IMG/VR virus record: IMGVR_UViG_3300003937_000011
Location: 1 to 27,251 of that record
Direction: 5' to 3' (one strand)
DNA from: a virus
Length of the DNA stretch: 27,251 nucleotides
Shown: positions 313-18,622 of the stretch, in pieces
Position numbering within the stretch: position 1 is the stretch's first letter
Layout of the letters: the number at the start of each line of letters is the position of its first letter
Made by a program: the position numbers and the translations under genes
The notes under the pieces: generated by a model
What the model was told of the DNA's origin: nothing
The model's input: the letters and a program-made list of their open reading frames with translations, nothing else
The model's database searches: none

Positions 313-486
313 TCAGTGTTGGGAATTTTTGATATTTGTCATTATCGTGTCAAGAATTATTCCTGAGATAATAAACCATACGGCAGCAACATAGTGATTG
401 GAGGTGAAAAAGGATACTATGATAAGTCCGATTGTTCCACCTACTAAGTAGTCTAAAATATCGTACCATTTACCTTTATTTTTCAC
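313..486 (-). CDS. small membrane protein, 57 aa
   Basis: GTG start at 486 overlaps the last codons of the upstream minus-strand gene, and a TAAGG element lies about 8 bases upstream. The product begins MKNKGKWYDILDYL and carries two hydrophobic segments: residues ~14-27 (LVGGTIGLIIVSFF) and ~33-46 (VAAVWFIISGIILD), with a basic N-terminus and a polar tail. It looks like a two-pass inner-membrane hairpin. Function is unknown; it is the last recognisable gene of the minus-strand block. The GTG start and short length mean it could be missed by gene callers, but the hydrophobic pattern and the overlap support it. Confidence 0.65.
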   Translation of the reverse strand: MKNKGKWYDILDYLVGGTIGLIIVSFFTSNHYVAAVWFIISGIILDTIMTNIKNSQH

Positions 487-802
487 CTATGAGCCTTAAA
501 TATTTTGAGCGTAGTGCTGATGCTGTGCGTTGTTGGTCGAAACGGTCGTTCCAACCGAGTTGTATAAGCCGTGTGCAAGTTTTCATTACTTCTGGGCCTA
601 GAGGTACACCTGTTAGTGCCTCTATTAGTGCTTTTGACTCTTGTTCAGAGTAGAATTTAAAGGATTTTGCTTTAGATTCCATAAGTACCTCTTTGACGAC
701 TTCTAGTCGTGATTCGAGAGTTTCTATGCGTTTAAAAGCATCAATCGTTATCTTTGCAGTATAATCTTCAAGATACTGGATTCGTTCTTCAAGTGTTTTC
801 AT
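476..802 (-). CDS. coiled-coil protein of unknown function, 108 aa
   Basis: ATG at 802 is preceded by AAGAGG with good spacing, and its start region follows the upstream gene closely. Residues 1-45 are heptad-like (EERIQYLEDY, IETLESRLEVVKEVL), so a coiled coil is likely. The C-terminal half (about 50-108) is basic and helical, ending LRSKYLRLIGEK, and could bind nucleic acid, but no known domain is recognised. It sits in a minus-strand run with the DUF3310 protein and a small membrane protein, the arrangement of phage early accessory genes. Confidence 0.75.
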   Translation of the reverse strand: MKTLEERIQYLEDYTAKITIDAFKRIETLESRLEVVKEVLMESKAKSFKFYSEQESKALIEALTGVPLGPEVMKTCTRLIQLGWNDRFDQQRTASALRSKYLRLIGEK

Positions 803-1001
803 TTATTAACCTCTTTAAGTAAAATTGTGCCTTATATAAATCTTCTAGTCCGTTCTTAGTCTTGTAACGACAAATGTACTTGACTATGTTACCTTCTAAC
901 CAGTTAAATTTCTGGTCAGTAATAAAGTCAATAACTTGTATTTTGCCTTGTTGGTAGTGTTGTGGCGAAATAGGGTCGTTATCTTTTGAACTGTCTGCCA
1001 C
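789..1001 (-). CDS. DUF3310 family protein, 70 aa
   Basis: The protein has the DUF3310 pattern: HYQQGKIQVIDFI near residue 15, LEGNIVKYICRY near 35, and a KNGLEDLYKAQFYLKRLI tail. The domain is common in tailed phages, alone or fused as in T7 gp1.7, and is linked to nucleotide metabolism by that association; no catalytic role can be assigned to this short stand-alone form. The start is GTG at 1001, supported by GGGAGG 8 bases upstream. The GTG shares bases with the TAG stop of the preceding gene, which suggests translational coupling. Confidence 0.85.
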   Translation of the reverse strand: MADSSKDNDPISPQHYQQGKIQVIDFITDQKFNWLEGNIVKYICRYKTKNGLEDLYKAQFYLKRLINENT

Positions 1002-1543
1002 TACTTTAGCCTCCCGTAACTACCATACCCACTTCCTGCCCAAGTTGGCTTCATAGTTTTGCCATCTTTCGCTAGTGCGTAGTCCAAGTCTAATAATTTT
1101 TCACCAGACACCCAGTTTTGGGCTGCTTGACGAGCAAACTCTTCATCACAGTAGGGAAATTCCTCTATGTAGAATAGTGAGTTGCCGTAGTCGTAGCGAC
1201 ATTGTCTAGCGAAGTATCGAAGTTGGTAATAAGGCTTATCCTCATACACTTCACTTCTTTCTATGTTGTGTTCTGCCCGAACCTCATATACATTGACATG
1301 GGGTGGGTATTGTGGGTCACCAATATCTCGAGTTGATTTCGAGTATGTAGCGACTAGTATTTTTGATTCCTCCTTTGGGAAGGCGTTAGATTTGACATCA
1401 ACAGTAAGTTCGTTTCCGTCATAGTTTAGGTCGTAATCGGCGATAAGTTCGCCTACTTCACAGGCTTCCTTTTCAGAACTCGCTTCTACTTCTTGAGTAA
1501 CTTTATAGGTCTTAGTTACAACTACTTCATATTTTATTGTCAT
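1001..1543 (-). CDS. hypothetical protein, 180 aa
   Basis: ATG at 1543 follows an AGGA element. The N-terminal ~55 residues alternate polar and hydrophobic residues (KYEVVVTKTYKVTQEVEA, then NELTVDVKS) and look like a small beta-sheet domain. The C-terminal half is rich in Tyr, Asp and Glu, and ends with a Gly/Ser/Tyr tail. No family is recognised. It is the first gene downstream of the large structured non-coding stretch on the same strand, so that RNA may be its 5' leader or a separately processed transcript. Confidence 0.7.
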   Translation of the reverse strand: MTIKYEVVVTKTYKVTQEVEASSEKEACEVGELIADYDLNYDGNELTVDVKSNAFPKEESKILVATYSKSTRDIGDPQYPPHVNVYEVRAEHNIERSEVYEDKPYYQLRYFARQCRYDYGNSLFYIEEFPYCDEEFARQAAQNWVSGEKLLDLDYALAKDGKTMKPTWAGSGYGSYGRLK

Positions 1544-2221
1544 TGTTGTTCCTGTGTTAGAATAGGGGAGCCAGTTTAATACCCTAGTGAAAGTTCGATG
1601 GTTGCTGCCTTACACCTGTTCACTTCCGTCATGGCTCGAGGACGCACGAGTTTACTTGTGTCCCACCGTTGCTGGGGCTTGATTTACTCGAAACCCAGTG
1701 TGGATACAGACTTCGTGAAGTCTGGTTGCTCATCTATAGGGTGGGCTTACACTCCCTCCCCGAAGGGGGAAAGGGAGCGCTCGTCCTACTCGTCTACGAC
1801 AAGTCAGCATATTATTCTTTTACCGTCTCCTTGCTCTTTAGGTACAACAGATAAACTGGCACTCTTAAGGCATTTTGGAAAGTCGGGTGATGGAACCTCC
1901 TTTGTCCACACGCTTTATCAGTTTGCTCTAGTTTCTCACCCACTTTATTCACCTTCTCAGTTACCCTGTTTCAGGCATCTCGTTTCAGTTACTGTAGACT
2001 ACTCTCTAGTCGATAAATGCTTATACGCGGTAGGTCATGCTAAAACCTCCTTGCCTCGGTTGTTTAACGAGAGGACGGCACTCCTCATCTCCAGTTGTAA
2101 TTTTAAGACTGCTCTGGACACAGTCTGTTGAAACGAGACGGGTGTTTGTAGTCATTCCCTTTATATAATGTCCTATTCAACTCGTTTCCATCATATTCTA
2201 CTAGCAACAGTAGTTTATTTG
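1544..2221 (-). ncRNA. candidate large structured RNA, ~680 bases
   Basis: No convincing gene lies here, and the stretch is visibly richer in G and C than its surroundings, typical of structured RNA in an AT-rich genome. Many local and longer-range complements can be read. In plus coordinates: 2198-2202/2209-2213; 2131-2137/2181-2187 (AAACGAG/CTCGTTT); 2106-2111/2121-2126; 2071-2075/2082-2086; 1997-2001/2007-2011; 1885-1890/1936-1941 (GGGTGA/TCACCC); 1789-1794/1798-1803; 1749-1753/1697-1701 enclosing 1707-1714/1717-1724; and 1752-1777. The minus strand is favoured because 1752-1777 gives a C(UUCG)G tetraloop and 1789-1803 gives a G-U pair only on that strand. It would be transcribed with the minus-strand genes from the promoter at 2626-2654. 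Size and phage setting recall the GOLLD and ROOL classes, but I cannot match it to a known family. Confidence 0.55.
2021..2052 (-). promoter_or_regulatory. perfect Shine-Dalgarno with a 5-codon frame inside the structured RNA
   Basis: On the minus strand AAGGAGG (2052-2046) lies 7 bases before ATG at 2038, which opens only MTYRV before TAA. This could be a leader peptide, a ribosome-docking site, or chance. A second element, AAAGGAGGT, lies near 1898-1906 without an ATG at normal distance, and AAGGAG occurs near 1830. Confidence 0.35.
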
Positions 2222-2575
2222 TTAGGACTCTCTATGTATGCGTTTCGCATCAGGAGTCCATTTTGTATTGTACTTACCACTAATCTCAGTTCGTGCTACA
2301 TTAGCCTCCATTGCTCTTTGGCGTAACTCTTCTTTCGACTCAAATGGGGACATAGCAGCGTAAGGTGCTGGACGCTCTTTAGGTGTAATAACAGTCCATG
2401 TTTCCTTCCACTCGTGTATATCTCTGCGAAGTTGGTCTATGGTATATTCACCATTTACAATATCGGCAATAATTTCGATTGCCTCCTCTAGTGGTTTGTC
2501 AGATACATTAATTTGGGTATCAATACCCAAGAAGCCGTCAACTTCTTCCTTAGTAACTAGTTTTGTATCCTTCAT
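2222..2575 (-). CDS. hypothetical protein, 117 aa
   Basis: First gene of the minus-strand transcript from the strong promoter at 2626-2654; ATG at 2575 is preceded by AAGGAA with about 8 bases spacing. The product is acidic at the N-terminus (KEEVDGFLGID, LEEAIEIIADIVNGEY) and basic at the C-terminus (KYNTKWTPDAKRIHRES), mostly helical by pattern, with no membrane segment or Cys motif. No family is recognised. The structured RNA follows directly after its stop. Confidence 0.75.
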   Translation of the reverse strand: MKDTKLVTKEEVDGFLGIDTQINVSDKPLEEAIEIIADIVNGEYTIDQLRRDIHEWKETWTVITPKERPAPYAAMSPFESKEELRQRAMEANVARTEISGKYNTKWTPDAKRIHRES

Positions 2576-2625
2576 AATTTCGTTCCTTATAAATTTTTGT
2601 TAATTTTCGAATTTTTATAGACACT

Positions 2626-2654
2626 ATTATACCGAATTTTAACCATTTTGTCAA
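2626..2654 (-). promoter_or_regulatory. sigma70-type promoter (minus)
   Basis: Read on the minus strand: TTGACA at 2654-2649, 17 bases, TATAAT at 2631-2626. The leader contains TCGAAAATTAACAAAAAT, the motif shared by most promoters in this window. It drives the minus-strand genes from 2575 downwards. Confidence 0.88.
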
Positions 2655-2665
2655 GAAGTTTTTTG

Positions 2666-2845
2666 AGTCACCCTGTAATATAATTTATTGTGTGAATCCT
2701 GCAATTGTCAAAGAGAGTTGTCTGACTCCAATAGAAGCAAATAGGCTTAAAGAACGAAAAAGTATATAAAAAAATACTCCAAAAACGTAAAAAAGCAAAA
2801 AAAGAACTGCAAAGAACGAAAAAACTACAAAATTGAAGTACTACA
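2666..2845. other. A-rich spacer with phased A-tracts
   Basis: This intergenic stretch between the minus-strand promoter and the terminator of the outer-membrane gene has no supported gene. The plus strand at about 2757-2835 carries eight A-tracts of 3-7 bases spaced roughly one helix turn or a little less apart, and AAAGAACGAAAAA occurs twice (near 2751 and 2811). Phased A-tracts curve DNA, so this may act as an architectural element. A 64-residue minus-strand frame here consists mainly of Phe, Ser and Cys from the poly-T run and is not believed. Confidence 0.45.
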
Positions 2846-2875
2846 GACAAAAAACCCGACACGAGGTCGGGCTTC
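2846..2875 (-). terminator. rho-independent terminator
   Basis: Stem GTCGGG (plus 2866-2871) with CCCGAC (2855-2860), loop of 5, and six T on the minus strand just after the stem. It ends the outer-membrane protein gene; there is also a T-rich run on the plus side, so it may work both ways. Confidence 0.85.
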
Positions 2876-2895
2876 TTGTTTTTGAGTTAAGGTTT

Positions 2896-3651
2896 TTAGA
2901 AGCTCATCTTCGCTATGACAGAGACAACTCCATCTGCAGTTCCAATCTTCTCATACTTTCCAGTAAGGATACCTTGTGTAACTTCTAAAGTGTAAGTCTT
3001 AACATCAGTTGATGCTATAGACACTCCACCTTTAACAGTTCCTACTAAGCCCAAAGGCATAGAGACAGAACCACCATTAGAAGTAGTATCGTCGGCTGCT
3101 TTATCGTGCTCTAGTGCAACGGTGAAGCCTCCAATTTTAGTACTAGTATCTAAGTCCAGTACAGTACCTGCAGTAGTTTTCTGATAACCTACAGTAGAAG
3201 TAAGACCAGCTATAGTAGTACCAATAGTAGTTTCACGGTCAGACCTAGTTATATCCTCGACTGTTACATCGATTCCACCAAATTTGCCTTTTACATCTAA
3301 AGATTCTTTACCGCCAGAAGGTTTAGACACACTTACTGTCATGCCGCCTACTTGTGTAGATGCTTTAATGATACTGGTATTAGCCACATCATCAATAGTC
3401 ATGTTACCTAGAGTTAAATCTACGCCTCTTAACTTAGCTGTAGCGTATAAATCCGTGATAGTATTAGTCTCATCAACAACAGTAGTTACTGACCCGAAAG
3501 GGGTAGAACCTACTAGTTTTAAGTCTAAAGTTTGCGAGTATACACCTGCTTGTGTAAGTGTACCCTCGTAATCACCAGAAATGGCAACGCTAGCTTGAGC
3601 TGAAGCAGTGGATAGAGTAACGGCTGCAGCCGCTAGTAATAATTTATTCAT
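2896..3651 (-). CDS. exported outer-membrane beta-barrel-like (porin-like) protein, 251 aa
   Basis: The N-terminus is a textbook signal peptide: MNKLLLAAAAVTLSTASAQA, with likely cleavage after AQA at residue 20. The mature part is made of short alternating strands rich in Gly, Thr, Ser and Val (VAISGDYEG, DLTLGNM, GGMTVSV, GGIDVTVE, GGFTVALE), with no Cys and no hydrophobic helix, and the last residue is Phe (VISVIAKMSF ending), as in proteins inserted by the BAM machinery. This points to a small outer-membrane barrel of a Gram-negative cell. GGAG precedes the ATG. The gene stands alone between a phage-type promoter (3736-3764) and a terminator. Such a cargo gene could change uptake, receptor exposure or superinfection; which one is not shown. 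It could instead be a host-derived porin fragment, since 251 aa is short for a trimeric porin. Confidence 0.75.
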   Translation of the reverse strand: MNKLLLAAAAVTLSTASAQASVAISGDYEGTLTQAGVYSQTLDLKLVGSTPFGSVTTVVDETNTITDLYATAKLRGVDLTLGNMTIDDVANTSIIKASTQVGGMTVSVSKPSGGKESLDVKGKFGGIDVTVEDITRSDRETTIGTTIAGLTSTVGYQKTTAGTVLDLDTSTKIGGFTVALEHDKAADDTTSNGGSVSMPLGLVGTVKGGVSIASTDVKTYTLEVTQGILTGKYEKIGTADGVVSVIAKMSF

Positions 3652-12171: not shown

Positions 12172-12304
12172 TATCGAAATATTAGTATATGGGTTCTTAA
12201 TTATAGCAACAGGAAGCTCTTATTATTTTGGTCGTCAACATGGTATAAAGGACGCAGTAGAAACTATGGAAAGACTGGGTCTTGTAGAATTTACAGATGA
12301 GTGA
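12164..12304 (+). CDS. small single-pass membrane protein, 46 aa
   Basis: ATG at 12164 lies within the last codons of the preceding gene. MPDIEILVYGFLIIATGSSY forms one hydrophobic helix (residues ~5-21); the C-terminal part (YYFGRQHGIKDAVETMERLG, then VEFTDE) is an amphipathic acidic helix. Short proteins of this build, one N-terminal helix plus a YxxGRxxGxxD-type tail, occur widely in marine phages. Function unknown. Confidence 0.6.
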   Translation: MPDIEILVYGFLIIATGSSYYFGRQHGIKDAVETMERLGLVEFTDE

Positions 12305-12313
12305 AAATAGTGC

Positions 12314-12342
12314 TTGACTTTTTTGGTGAAATTTGATATAAT
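12314..12342 (+). promoter_or_regulatory. sigma70-type promoter of hsp20
   Basis: TTGACT 12314-12319, 17 bases, TATAAT 12337-12342, with AAAATAGTGC upstream. Unlike the other promoters it is followed by a long hairpin-rich leader rather than the short A/T motif. Confidence 0.9.
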
Positions 12343-12350
12343 ATATATAA

Positions 12351-12465
12351 ATAGTAGTAATGCCTTCGGGGTTACCAACTATTAGACGGGCAATTAGCCC
12401 ATTTTTAACCCGTGTGGCTTGACTTCAAGCACACAATTCTTACTTTATAAGGAGAAATTATAATG
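12351..12465 (+). promoter_or_regulatory. candidate RNA thermometer in the hsp20 leader
   Basis: Four consecutive hairpins. I: 12351-12382, ATAGT/ACTAT and GTAA..CC closing a UUCG loop. II: GGGC 12388-12391 with GCCC 12397-12400, in competition with ACGGG 12386-12390 pairing CCCGT 12409-12413. III: 12412-12434, GTGT and GCTTG pairing CAAGC and ACAC. IV: AATTCTTACTT 12435-12445 with AAGGAGAAATT 12449-12459 around a 3-base loop, with one C/A and one A/G mismatch and a U-G pair. Hairpin IV hides the Shine-Dalgarno AAGGAG, 8 bases from ATG 12463. An imperfect SD-masking hairpin after other hairpins, upstream of a small heat-shock gene, is the layout of ROSE-type thermometers. Confidence 0.7.
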
Positions 12466-12876
12466 GTAGCAACACAATTAGTACACGACTTCCCTTTCAG
12501 GGACATGATGATAGGATTCGACGACTTCTTCTCACACGCAGATAGAGTTTCAGGCAATCTTAAATACCCCCCATACAACATAGCAAAACACTCTGATGAG
12601 AAATATACCATCGAGATAGCTTTGGCTGGGTGGTCAAAAGACCAACTTACTATAGAACAACACAACGGTAAACTAACTATCAAAGGTACAAAACCTAATG
12701 GTATGACTGAGACCGAGTTCGTATACAAAGGGATTGGTAATAGAGCTTTCACAAGAGAGTTCAAGTTAGCAGAGCATATGAATGTATCTAACGCTGACTT
12801 AGAGAATGGTGTTCTGAGCATAGACTTAGAACTAGATATTCCTGAGGAACTAAAGCCTAAACGGATTTCATTGTAG
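12463..12876 (+). CDS. small heat-shock protein, Hsp20/alpha-crystallin family, 137 aa
   Basis: ATP-independent chaperone that holds unfolding proteins. After a short N-terminal arm (FPFRDMMIGFDDFFSHAD) the alpha-crystallin domain runs from about residue 35 to 125: PPYNIAKHSDEKYTIEIALAG, LTIEQHNGKLTIKG, FTREFKLAEHMNVSNADLENGVLSIDLE. The GVL motif is present, and the C-terminus KRISL supplies the I-x-I/L-type tail used in oligomer assembly. This resembles the IbpA type and Hsp20 proteins known from marine cyanophages. Single-gene transcript between the 12314 promoter and the 12881 terminator, with translation probably set by the leader. The phage may use it to protect its proteins or keep the host working during heat or infection stress. 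Confidence 0.93.
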   Translation: MVATQLVHDFPFRDMMIGFDDFFSHADRVSGNLKYPPYNIAKHSDEKYTIEIALAGWSKDQLTIEQHNGKLTIKGTKPNGMTETEFVYKGIGNRAFTREFKLAEHMNVSNADLENGVLSIDLELDIPEELKPKRISL

Positions 12877-12880
12877 TCAA

Positions 12881-12910
12881 TACTAAGCCCTCTACGGAGG
12901 GCTTTTTAGT
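12881..12910 (+). terminator. rho-independent terminator after hsp20
   Basis: AAGCCCTC (12885-12892) with GAGGGCTT (12897-12904), 4-base loop, then TTTTAG. Flanking TACTA/TAGTA extends the symmetry, so it may act in both directions. Confidence 0.88.
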
Positions 12911-12930: not shown

Positions 12931-12959
12931 TTGACATTTATGTCATATTTTGTTATAAT
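12931..12959 (+). promoter_or_regulatory. sigma70-type promoter
   Basis: TTGACA 12931-12936, 17 bases, TATAAT 12954-12959; leader contains GGAATTTTAAGGAATAACA, a variant of the shared motif. Drives the membrane protein gene at 13008. Confidence 0.9.
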
Positions 12960-13299: not shown

Positions 13300-13328
13300 T
13301 TGACATCTATCTTAAATTATAGTATAAT
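13300..13328 (+). promoter_or_regulatory. sigma70-type promoter
   Basis: TTGACA 13300-13305, 17 bases, TATAAT 13323-13328, AAAAATAGTAC upstream, and GTCGAAATTTAACATAAAA in the leader (a full copy of the shared motif). Drives 13379-14518. Confidence 0.9.
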
Positions 13329-16533: not shown

Positions 16534-16826
16534 GCATTACTGATGATGATGTTTACGAAAAGATAATTTTAGAACAAGAAGATAAAGAAATACAATATAG
16601 GTTAGTTGTATCTACTTTCAGAGATGTTGAGTATGTTCATATAAGAAAATACTATTTAGACTTTGAAGGGGAGTATAAACCCACGAAAGAGGGAGTGTGC
16701 ATACCATTTGAACTTAACAGTCTATCCAACTTATTTGAAGGTTTAGTAGAACTACTATCCTTATCAGAAAGCAAAAGCATTATACAAGAACACTTTAAAC
16801 ACTTATTAAGAGATTTATATGACTAA
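16530..16826 (+). CDS. PC4-like ssDNA-binding transcription cofactor, 98 aa
   Basis: Residues ~22-80 match the PC4/p15 layout: RLVVSTFRDVEYVHIRKYYL (VRVxxFRGxxYVDIRxYY in the family), DFEGEYKPTKEGVCIPFEL (xDxxGExxPTKKGIxLxxxx), then a closing helix. The family binds single-stranded DNA as a dimer and can stimulate transcription or replication; phage members are known. The acidic first 20 residues are extra. It lies just upstream of the ligase genes, overlapping ligA. I see no known T5 protein of this name, so this call rests on the motif. Confidence 0.75.
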   Translation: MSITDDDVYEKIILEQEDKEIQYRLVVSTFRDVEYVHIRKYYLDFEGEYKPTKEGVCIPFELNSLSNLFEGLVELLSLSESKSIIQEHFKHLLRDLYD

Positions 16827-17802
16827 AGACTTATTAGATAAGGCATCAAAGGCGTACTTCGAAGGTTCGCCTTTTTTGTCCGACGAAGAATTTGATGCCC
16901 TCGCAGAGAAAGAAGGCTATGAGCGTGTAGGATACAATCCAGACGCTAAACAACAACACCTGTTCCCTTTATACTCGTTACAAAAAGTATTCGAAGGGGA
17001 AGACACTCCACCCGTATATAAAAGTAAAGTAATTGAAACCCCTAAATTAGATGGGGCTGCAATTGCTGTACAGTATAAAAAGGGAAAACTTTTCAAAGTA
17101 ATAACTAGAGGCGATGGTATCGCAGGGGTAGACGTAACCGATAAATTTATGTTTTCTGACCTTATACCAAAACAGTTTCATTCTGGTTTAGAATTTAAAG
17201 ACTGGGGTATAATGCAAATTACAGGTGAAATAGTAGCTCCTAAGGAAATTCCTAATGCACGGAATTATGCGGCAGGAGCATTGAATCTAAAGGATATTAA
17301 TGAGTTTAGAAATCGAAATCTTACTTTTATTGCTTATAGTGTAGAACCCACAATAAGTTCTTACTATAAGACCGATATGAGTAGTCTACTATATGAAGGT
17401 TTTAATGTAGTAACCTGTGACCAAAGTAATAATTGGAACGAGTTTCCAAACGATGGTAAAGTAATACGTGTAGATAGTAACCTAGAGTATGATATGTTAG
17501 GATATACATCTCACCACCCTAGAGGAGCGTATGCTCTGAAGACTAGGGAAGAAGGTATTGAAACTACATTATTAGATGTGATATGGCAGACAGGTAAAAG
17601 TGGAAAAGTTACTCCAGTAGCAATACTAGACCCTATAGAAATTGATGACGCTATAATTTCAAGGGCAACCTTGAACAACATAGCATACATCAAAAGTTTG
17701 AATCTTGAAATAGGGTGTCGAGTAAAGGTAATAAGGGCGGGCAAGATAATCCCCCGAGTTATTGAAAGAGTCAGTGGTAACATGGAAAAAAATAATACTT
17801 GA
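16819..17802 (+). CDS. ligA: NAD+-dependent DNA ligase, subunit A (adenylation and OB domains), 327 aa
   Basis: N-terminal half of a ligase split over two genes, as in T5. Residues 1-45 hold a short Ia (NMN-binding) region, AYFEGSPFLSDEEFDAL. The nucleotidyltransferase domain has the adenylated Lys 76 in TPKLDGAAIAV, then TRGDGIAG, TGEIV, NARNYAAGALN and YALKTREE. The OB-fold runs from about 245: WQTGKSGKVTPVAIL, RATLNNIAYIK, VIRAGKIIPRV. It seals nicks left after flap removal. The ATG lies before the stop of the PC4-like gene. The zinc, helix-hairpin-helix and BRCT parts are encoded by the next gene. The TGA stop forms part of the -35 box of the promoter in front of that gene. Confidence 0.95.
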   Translation: MTKDLLDKASKAYFEGSPFLSDEEFDALAEKEGYERVGYNPDAKQQHLFPLYSLQKVFEGEDTPPVYKSKVIETPKLDGAAIAVQYKKGKLFKVITRGDGIAGVDVTDKFMFSDLIPKQFHSGLEFKDWGIMQITGEIVAPKEIPNARNYAAGALNLKDINEFRNRNLTFIAYSVEPTISSYYKTDMSSLLYEGFNVVTCDQSNNWNEFPNDGKVIRVDSNLEYDMLGYTSHHPRGAYALKTREEGIETTLLDVIWQTGKSGKVTPVAILDPIEIDDAIISRATLNNIAYIKSLNLEIGCRVKVIRAGKIIPRVIERVSGNMEKNNT

Positions 17803-17827: not shown

Positions 17828-17857
17828 ATATGATATAGAAAATTGAGAAATAACATC

Positions 17858-18622
17858 ATGAATTTAAGAACTATTACTGAACCTACCTCATGCCCTACTT
17901 GTAATTCTACATTAGAGTTGGTGAATGACCAACTTTTCTGCAGGAACAACAACTGTGAGGCTAAGACTAGTAAATTGATAGAACATTTCGCAAAGACTCT
18001 GAAAATTAAAGGACTCGGACCGAAAACGATTGATAAGCTACCTCTTAATTCTATATCAGATATTTATTCTATTTCTAAGAAAGAAATATCGAGTGAAATT
18101 GGGGAAAAGTTAGGAACAAAACTGTACGAACAGATTGAAAAAAGTAAGTCTGTAGATGCTAAAACTTTGTTACCTGCTTTCTCTATTTCATTGATTGGCA
18201 ACACTGCTTCCAAGCGACTATTTAGTAAGATTTCTCACATGAATGATATTAATGAAAAGAGTTGCGTATCGGCAGGACTGGGGCCAAAATCCTGTGCTAA
18301 CTTACTCGAATGGTATTATAGTGATTATAAAGATAACCTAGAGTATTTGCCTTTTTCATTCCAGGCAGGTGTACAAGAACCAACAGCTGAAAGTATCGGA
18401 AAATCAGTCTGTATTACAGGGAAACTTAATGATTATAAAAATAGAACTCTTGCAAAAGAGTATTTAGAATCGTTAGGGTTTACCGTTACTTCCTCTGTTA
18501 CTAAGAAAACAGATTACTTAGTGGATGAAGAAGGAAGAAAATCAAGTAAGAGTACTAAAGCCGAAAGCTATGGTATTCCAATTTTAACAATAAAAGATAT
18601 AATTAAGGAAAATTTATTATGA
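17858..18622 (+). CDS. ligB: NAD+-dependent DNA ligase, subunit B (zinc finger, HhH, BRCT), 254 aa
   Basis: C-terminal half of the split ligase. Residues ~12-36 form the four-Cys zinc finger (CPTC...FCRNNNCEA); helix-hairpin-helix repeats follow (IKGLGPKTIDKLPLNSISDIY; SAGLGPKSCANLLEWY), and a BRCT domain ends the protein (GKSVCITGKLNDYKNRTLAKEYLESLG ... TDYLVDEEG ... GIPILTIKDI). It should bind DNA and join LigA to give a full enzyme of about 581 residues, shorter than bacterial LigA. ATG 17858 is chosen; a TTG at 17843 in frame would add five residues. No strong ribosome site is seen. Made from its own promoter, so its amount can differ from LigA. Confidence 0.95.
   Translation: MNLRTITEPTSCPTCNSTLELVNDQLFCRNNNCEAKTSKLIEHFAKTLKIKGLGPKTIDKLPLNSISDIYSISKKEISSEIGEKLGTKLYEQIEKSKSVDAKTLLPAFSISLIGNTASKRLFSKISHMNDINEKSCVSAGLGPKSCANLLEWYYSDYKDNLEYLPFSFQAGVQEPTAESIGKSVCITGKLNDYKNRTLAKEYLESLGFTVTSSVTKKTDYLVDEEGRKSSKSTKAESYGIPILTIKDIIKENLL

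Follow-up and report, generated by a model that had tools for sequence, protein, structure and literature searches.

The hsp20 locus and its leader

The window, i.e., the whole stretch of DNA that was analysed (27,251 bases, the full length of a virus record), carries a gene for a small heat-shock protein, hsp20, whose leader of about 114 bases follows a sigma-70-like promoter (Table 1). According to the first-pass annotation, a phage thermometer would make chaperone synthesis respond to heat regardless of transcription by the host; the promoter looks host-type, so that transcription still matters for hsp20. From the position of the promoter the transcript would start near 12349. The promoter and the leader are common to the window and two near relatives, the viral contigs L001 and L002, whose Hsp20 proteins match that of the window at 93% and 91%. 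The terminator-like hairpin behind the gene suggests a one-gene transcript. Two further promoters with a perfect consensus (TTGACA-17-TATAAT) were detected by the consensus scan after hsp20, at 12931-12959 and 13300-13328, which suggests that several host-type promoters serve this stretch. No match to the DNA of 12300-12880 was found in the phage DNA collection. The DNA polymerase of the window is closest to that of Enterobacter phage KKP_3711 (47.6%), and then to those of phages of 111-116 kb (about 46%), which we take to be T5-like. In addition, a NAD-dependent DNA ligase is split over two frames (16819-17802 and 17843-18622), each with its own PHROG.

Table 1. Features of the hsp20 locus, with positions in the window
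Feature	Position	Strand	Basis
Sigma-70-like promoter, TTGACT-17-TATAAT, TG ahead of the -10 box	12314-12342	+	consensus scan, 11/12
Hairpin I, ROSE-type first hairpin: AATAGT/ACTATT and GTAA/TTAC around the core ATGCCTTCGGGGT (12360-12372)	12350-12383	+	fold; model R1; covariation of the flanks
Hairpin II: GGGC AATTA GCCC	12388-12400	+	fold; pair probability at least 0.99; a double change in each of the four pairs across 21 related leaders
Hairpin III: GTGTG.CTTG ACTT CAAGCACAC	12412-12434	+	fold; one G-C to A-T double change in L002
Hairpin IV, masking hairpin: UUCUU, bulged A12442, CUU, loop UAU, AAGGAGAA	12437-12456	+	fold at 10-20°C; recurrence of an 18-mer; compensating arms
Shine-Dalgarno AAGGAG	12449-12454	+	sequence; 8 bases ahead of the ATG at 12463
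hsp20, 137 aa, gene behind the leader	12463-12876	+	PF00011, E 7e-15; phrog_432
Terminator-like hairpin 3′ of hsp20	12885-12904	+	consensus scan; about one such site expected by chance in the scanned stretch

The first-pass annotation had proposed four hairpins in succession in the hsp20 leader, and the fold bears this out, with all four located between the promoter and the start codon. The last one does cover AAGGAG, as had also been claimed, but not in the proposed register of 11 positions with two mismatches: the best pairing, which is the lowest-energy form at both 10 and 20°C, sets UUCUU-(A12442)-CUU against AAGGAGAA, with eight pairs and one bulged A. When the leader (12349-12465) was compared with dinucleotide shuffles its folding energy was unusual (z -2.87, 5 of 1000 shuffles as good), and the same held for a longer stretch, 12340-12490 (z -2.46, 2 of 200 as good). 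Folded alone at 37°C, hairpins I, II, III and IV gave -8.4, -5.8, -9.2 and -1.8 kcal/mol, respectively, so that the unusual energy of the leader is carried by hairpins I to III. Hairpin IV alone was matched by 400 of 1000 dinucleotide shuffles and by 610 of 2000 base shuffles, and its folding energy, being no better than that of shuffles, was rejected as evidence. Since this energy is ordinary, any claim that the leader is a thermometer must rest on comparison.

Compensating changes in related viral leaders

Viral contigs were scanned for the 13-base core of hairpin I flanked by T..A, A..T or G..C, with the mismatched A..A as the control. The places listed were at least 124, at least 121 and at least 120 for the three pairing flanks and 39 for A..A (at least 404 in total, a few contigs being counted twice, e.g., L001 as L157, L002 as L143 and L003 as L028). 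A ribosome site and a frame of more than 45 codons were present at no fewer than 109, 82 and 87 of them, respectively, and at one place with A..A. Classification was confined to the 278 of the 365 listed pairing-flank places that had such a site and frame. Among the matches listed, Hsp20 frames were identified by profile in 66, 69, 87 and 0 cases (T..A, A..T, G..C and A..A), and frames of one family of small proteins in 42, 11, 0 and 0; with pairing flanks, 275 of the 278 precede either hsp20 (222) or this small-protein family (53), and the single control place (0/1) precedes neither. The small proteins, of 64-98 aa (MFYANMAIDSIQDAK..), stand behind ROSE-like leaders in, e.g., L010, L005, L025, L131 and L232. 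The three or four of them that were tried obtained no usable name from Pfam, PHROGs or NCBIfam; our impression is that they are phasin-like.

The flanks of the core covary. An initial list of leaders had kept only stems of three pairs or more; for the covariation count leaders were taken regardless of the stem, with pair 1 fixed by the search patterns. In shuffles the second flanking pair was formed at most 102 times; in 198 distinct leaders it was formed 197 times, as G-C in 79, A-T in 45, C-G in 41, T-A in 25 and G-T or T-G in 7. The third was formed in 169 of 197 leaders (shuffles, at most 91). For the fourth the count was 97 of 197, above the 79 that shuffles reached at most, and beyond pair 4 the stem was at the level of shuffles (pair 5, 61 of 197; shuffle mean, 61.5). 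Directly ahead of the ribosome site, T(C/T)GC(C/T) was present in 180 of the 197 distinct leaders with the hairpin I core. The other 17 comprise two relatives of the window, five CCTGCC forms in which the pairing is shifted, L215, four leaders of genes other than hsp20 (L089, L152, L161 and L382) and five leaders of hsp20. In L215 (minus strand) a small hairpin, GGTAC..GTACC, is inserted in the masking loop, and the CTTGCTTT/AAAGGAG helix is kept.

A model of the family, R1, rests on 44 viral leaders: 47 representatives were taken from a set of 167, and L259, L342 and L261 were dropped from them. The window and its relatives were excluded. R1 finds hairpin I of the window at 12357-12375 with 22.9 bits and E 1.6e-4 (the next best site in the window has E 0.3), and the match covers hairpin I only, as it does in L001 and L002. 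The E. coli ibpA leader is also found (16.3 bits, E 0.01). Exactly one site, always the hsp20 leader, was detected in 10 of 12 whole phage records chosen for hsp20; at E 0.05 no site was detected in HTVC008M and Phosso, though the design is visible there by eye. The 12 larger virus records taken from the pattern matches gave exactly one site in 11 and none in the A..A control record. Four of these 12 had been picked for the small-protein family, and no second leader of this kind was found in them. A distant hsp20 locus, L003 (40%), has the hairpin I core in its leader, together with a weak full-length match to Rfam ROSE_3 (20.7 bits against a cut-off of 43, E 0.015).

Just upstream of the masking module, a four-pair hairpin is present in 21 of the 54 leaders with T(C/T)TTACTT. 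Its stem is GGGC/GCCC, the form of the window, in 13, GAGC/GCTC in 5, and AGGC/GCCT, GGAC/GTCC and GGGA/TCCC in one each, so that every pair of hairpin II has a double change. Among the other 33 leaders, L486 has the stem with a three-base loop, and most of the rest, read by eye, have only one upstream hairpin. Hairpin III was found only in the window, L001 and L002, and its support rests on these two near relatives.

The 18-mer at 12437-12454, which makes up most of hairpin IV, was found at 47 places in 46 viral contigs: 45 of them, including L001 and L002, precede hsp20, one precedes dnaK (L464) and one has no frame (L437). In bacteria and archaea (one genome each of 84,980 species, translated frames judged by eye) 0 of 19 places lay ahead of hsp20. 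In L464 the 18-mer occurs twice, in the dnaK leader and in the hsp20 leader; on this viral contig dnaK (635 aa, PF00012), hsp20 and clpS lie in a row (454-3326). Since the search with the 18-mer had fixed the letters, a second sample was picked by the Hsp20 protein alone, and the best 80 of 478 loci yielded 56 distinct leaders. In this sample from the best 80 of 478 loci, CU(C/U)(A/G)CU precedes AGGAG in 56 of 56 leaders, with A as the bulge in 52 and G in 4; shuffled upstream bases yield the motif in 1.6%. Hence, the A and the classical G of ROSE occupy the same place in related leaders.

The arms of the masking hairpin covary as well: CCAC(G)CUU faces AAGGUGG in S-TIM5, AACUU(G)CUUA faces UAAGGAGUU in C48C1, UAGAU(G)CUU faces GAGAUCUA in DSL-LC02, and AGAC(G)CUU faces GAGGUCU in AG-345-D19. 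Over 23 arm pairs (21 phages, the window and ibpA) the three pairs outside the bulge were formed in 69 of 69 cases, and shuffled arms reached at most 64 in 5000 trials, with a register that was chosen by the analyst and favours pairing, and with the arms of S-H9-1, Ettore and AG-345-D19 read by eye. S-SRM01 and P-HM2, whose annotated starts lie upstream of the leader and which both have CTCGCT..AGGAG further down, were excluded from this count. In a scripted search of 22 reference leaders (a list without L410, L420 and the unannotated L419), 18 yielded a ribosome-site hairpin with a bulged G, and S-SRM01, P-HM2, S-H9-1 and Ettore did not. The window, L001 and L002 do not differ in hairpin IV, so that these two near relatives are no test of it. 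The first-pass annotation had pointed to unpaired substitutions in hairpin IV of homologous phages as the observation that would tell against a thermometer; the related leaders instead keep the hairpin paired by compensating changes. Five distinct hsp20 leaders of another group (L132, L171, L240, L259 and L287) do not show the motif: they keep the hairpin I core, and the bases ahead of their ribosome site differ and lack U(U/C)GCU at its usual position.

Relation to ROSE and other known thermometers

The leader shares several traits with the ROSE and ROSE-like elements (B. japonicum ROSE1, E. coli and Pseudomonas ibpA; ROSE_3, RF02523). These have two to four hairpins, the last of which masks the Shine-Dalgarno, and the window has four, with AAGGAG in the last. 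In both, a C-G and a U-G pair lie next to a single bulged purine. Downstream is a small heat-shock gene (PF00011 and phrog_432 in the window), which is typical of ROSE and not required. The GCC..GGGU first hairpin is like that of E. coli ibpA, and the masking hairpin is number IV, as is the sensing hairpin reported for B. japonicum ROSE1 (PMC3669281). The differences lie in the masking helix, in the carrier and in the scores. The signature U(U/C)GCU and the bulged G were not found in the masking helix of the window, which has UUACU with the bulged A12442 (UUACU also in L001 and L002); the leader is phage-borne; and it falls below the Rfam cut-offs. The comparison lends good support to the earlier proposal that this phage hsp20 leader is a thermometer related to ROSE, and the strict ROSE label fails on U(U/C)GCU. 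With neither the signature nor the bulged G, and with no Rfam cut-off reached, the leader is a ROSE variant and not a filed member of the family.

At the level of Rfam, no family was above its cut-off in the window, and in ten other loci nothing but a tRNA was. ROSE_3 was above cut-off in 0 of 14 viral records and likewise in 0 of 14 control genomes, and eight bulged-A loci gave no ROSE match up to E 0.5. Freshwater-2 (RF02980), which is also a cis-regulatory family, aligned weakly along its full length with hairpin II and the ribosome site (22.3 bits against a cut-off of 49.9, E 0.1 to 0.19) and had no match in the record at E 0.001; the weak match is best read as chance. Nor is the leader of the fourU kind, in which four consecutive U face the Shine-Dalgarno, for four U in a row do not occur in the strand UUCUU-A-CUU. 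The ROSE-G motif, reported to be a thermometer, likewise departs from the ROSE bulge; it differs from the window leader in having CUGCU with opposing bulged Gs and in standing ahead of ABC transporter genes (PMC12857270).

Two or three temperature-controlled leaders have been described in phage genomes, namely those of lambda cIII, of SP-beta blyA (a fourU element) and of a Caudoviricetes sigma-70 gene (PMC10586365, PMC11182007). The leader of the window would join them as a temperature-controlled phage leader. They are of the fourU or another kind and serve other genes, and the accessible text of these two sources calls none of them ROSE-like or chaperone-linked. A search of the open-licence PMC literature by abstract openings returned no ROSE-like element in a phage, and a term search in the main text of two articles on cyanophage Hsp20 did not find the word 'thermometer'.

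Proposed temperature control and competing explanations

Taken together, the anatomy and the comparison make it quite probable that the hsp20 leader is a ROSE-like RNA thermometer that masks the Shine-Dalgarno, in a variant with a bulged A. The messenger would begin close to hairpin I, as judged from the promoter, and hairpins I to III would form the stable part of the leader. Hairpin IV, a weak helix that is mostly A-U and has one bulged A and one U-G pair, would keep the Shine-Dalgarno shut. By analogy with the tested bacterial ROSE elements, warming would open hairpin IV first, AAGGAG would be exposed, and ribosomes would make the chaperone. In the short ROSE elements of Pseudomonas, melting is reported for the Shine-Dalgarno hairpin, with hairpin I remaining closed, and expression is blocked by single deletions that make the Shine-Dalgarno hairpin more stable (PMC3669281); in a ROSE-like element, deletion of the bulged G lowers heat induction (PMC11342760). 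We infer translation opened by heat because the window has the same parts as the tested ROSE elements, i.e., a stable 5′ hairpin, a weak masking helix, a bulged purine and a small heat-shock gene. The response to temperature, the range over which it would act and the benefit that it may bring to the phage all belong to this reasoning by analogy.

The calculated melting was of little help in this regard. With the leader alone, the probability of the outer pair of hairpin IV was 0.84 at 10°C and 0.57 at 37°C, and the calculated exposure of the Shine-Dalgarno went up with temperature (0.12 at 10°C, 0.28 at 42°C). This rise was lost when 15 coding bases were added to the fold (0.53 at 10°C, 0.49 at 42°C), and a rival hairpin, which covers the AUG and leaves the Shine-Dalgarno in its loop, competed with hairpin IV. 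For L002 with coding bases the calculated exposure even dropped on warming (0.53 at 5°C, 0.33 at 37°C). The E. coli ibpA control with coding bases behaved like the window leader (0.36 and 0.39), and energy-based melting was rejected as evidence, since this control showed no clear response either. The calculated exposure at 20°C speaks for a masked site: it was 0.16 for the window leader, with a median of 0.15 for 47 viral leaders and of 0.50 for 21 further genes of the window, although 3 of these 21 were below the 0.16 of the window leader.

An improbable alternative, which nevertheless fares best among the rivals, is that the phage Hsp20, by binding to its own leader, keeps translation repressed until misfolded proteins draw Hsp20 away, so that the leader would sense protein damage and not temperature. 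E. coli IbpA is reported to repress its own ROSE leader via Arg93 (PMC10474464), and an Arg occupies the corresponding column in 8 of 8 aligned phage Hsp20 proteins, where IbpB, which lacks the activity, has Gln. However, the same source gives a basic residue at position 98 as required, and such a residue is present in only 1 of the 8 phage proteins, that of the window having Glu. The masking hairpin also lies ahead of dnaK in L464, although Hsp20 could act there too. Moreover, autoregulation may supplement a thermometer, as it does for E. coli IbpA.

We give marginally less credence to a leader that sets a low, constant translation and whose 5′ hairpin protects the messenger, its shape being conserved for stability or timing. 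The small change of the calculated exposure with temperature once coding bases are included would fit this. So would the position of the hairpin in P-SSM4, Syn19 and other reference leaders, where it lies a few bases after a TATAAATA- or TTAAATA-like motif and so may be the 5′ end of the messenger, and the use of the design ahead of the small-protein family, mainly with the T..A flank (53 of the 278 listed places over all flanks). Against it, the leader shares its conserved weak point, a purine that bulges out next to the Shine-Dalgarno, and the heat-shock genes that it serves with the tested bacterial thermometers (PMC3669281, PMC11342760). Finally, the first-pass annotation had suggested that hairpin II may switch partners, 12386-12390 pairing with 12409-12413. 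The five bases are indeed complementary, and L001 and L002 retain the letters, yet we regard such a switch as very improbable, because the competing helix has a probability of at most 1.3% from 10 to 37°C and hairpin II itself is maintained by compensating changes in the related leaders.

By the comparison, a ROSE-type leader stands ahead of hsp20 in well over 200 viral pattern matches and in known isolates, e.g., P-SSM4, Syn19 and HTVC103P. We are inclined, with some reservation, to think that tailed phages carry a large, unnamed ROSE-type branch of their own, that its bulged-A class is virus-specific (as judged from the exact 18-mer only) and serves viral hsp20 and, in one contig, dnaK, and that phages commonly, and not just rarely, control chaperones directly by heat. 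Should heat open these leaders, phages would be using temperature itself, by direct physical means, to control chaperone synthesis during infection. Culturable phage-host pairs exist among the carriers of the design, and the swap of A for G is a natural experiment on the role of the ROSE bulged base.

Some of the annotated hsp20 genes deserve comment. In P-HM2 (L552, near 263-336) and S-SRM01 (L547, near 281-332) a thermometer-like leader lies inside the annotated hsp20, and translation probably starts at the ATGs that follow AGGAG. The hsp20 genes of two unverified records, Campylobacter phage A11a (L420) and Pseudomonas phage Y7 (L410), look like copies of bacterial ibpA, the leader in L420 reads like that of E. 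coli ibpA, and both genes are probably host sequence in the record.
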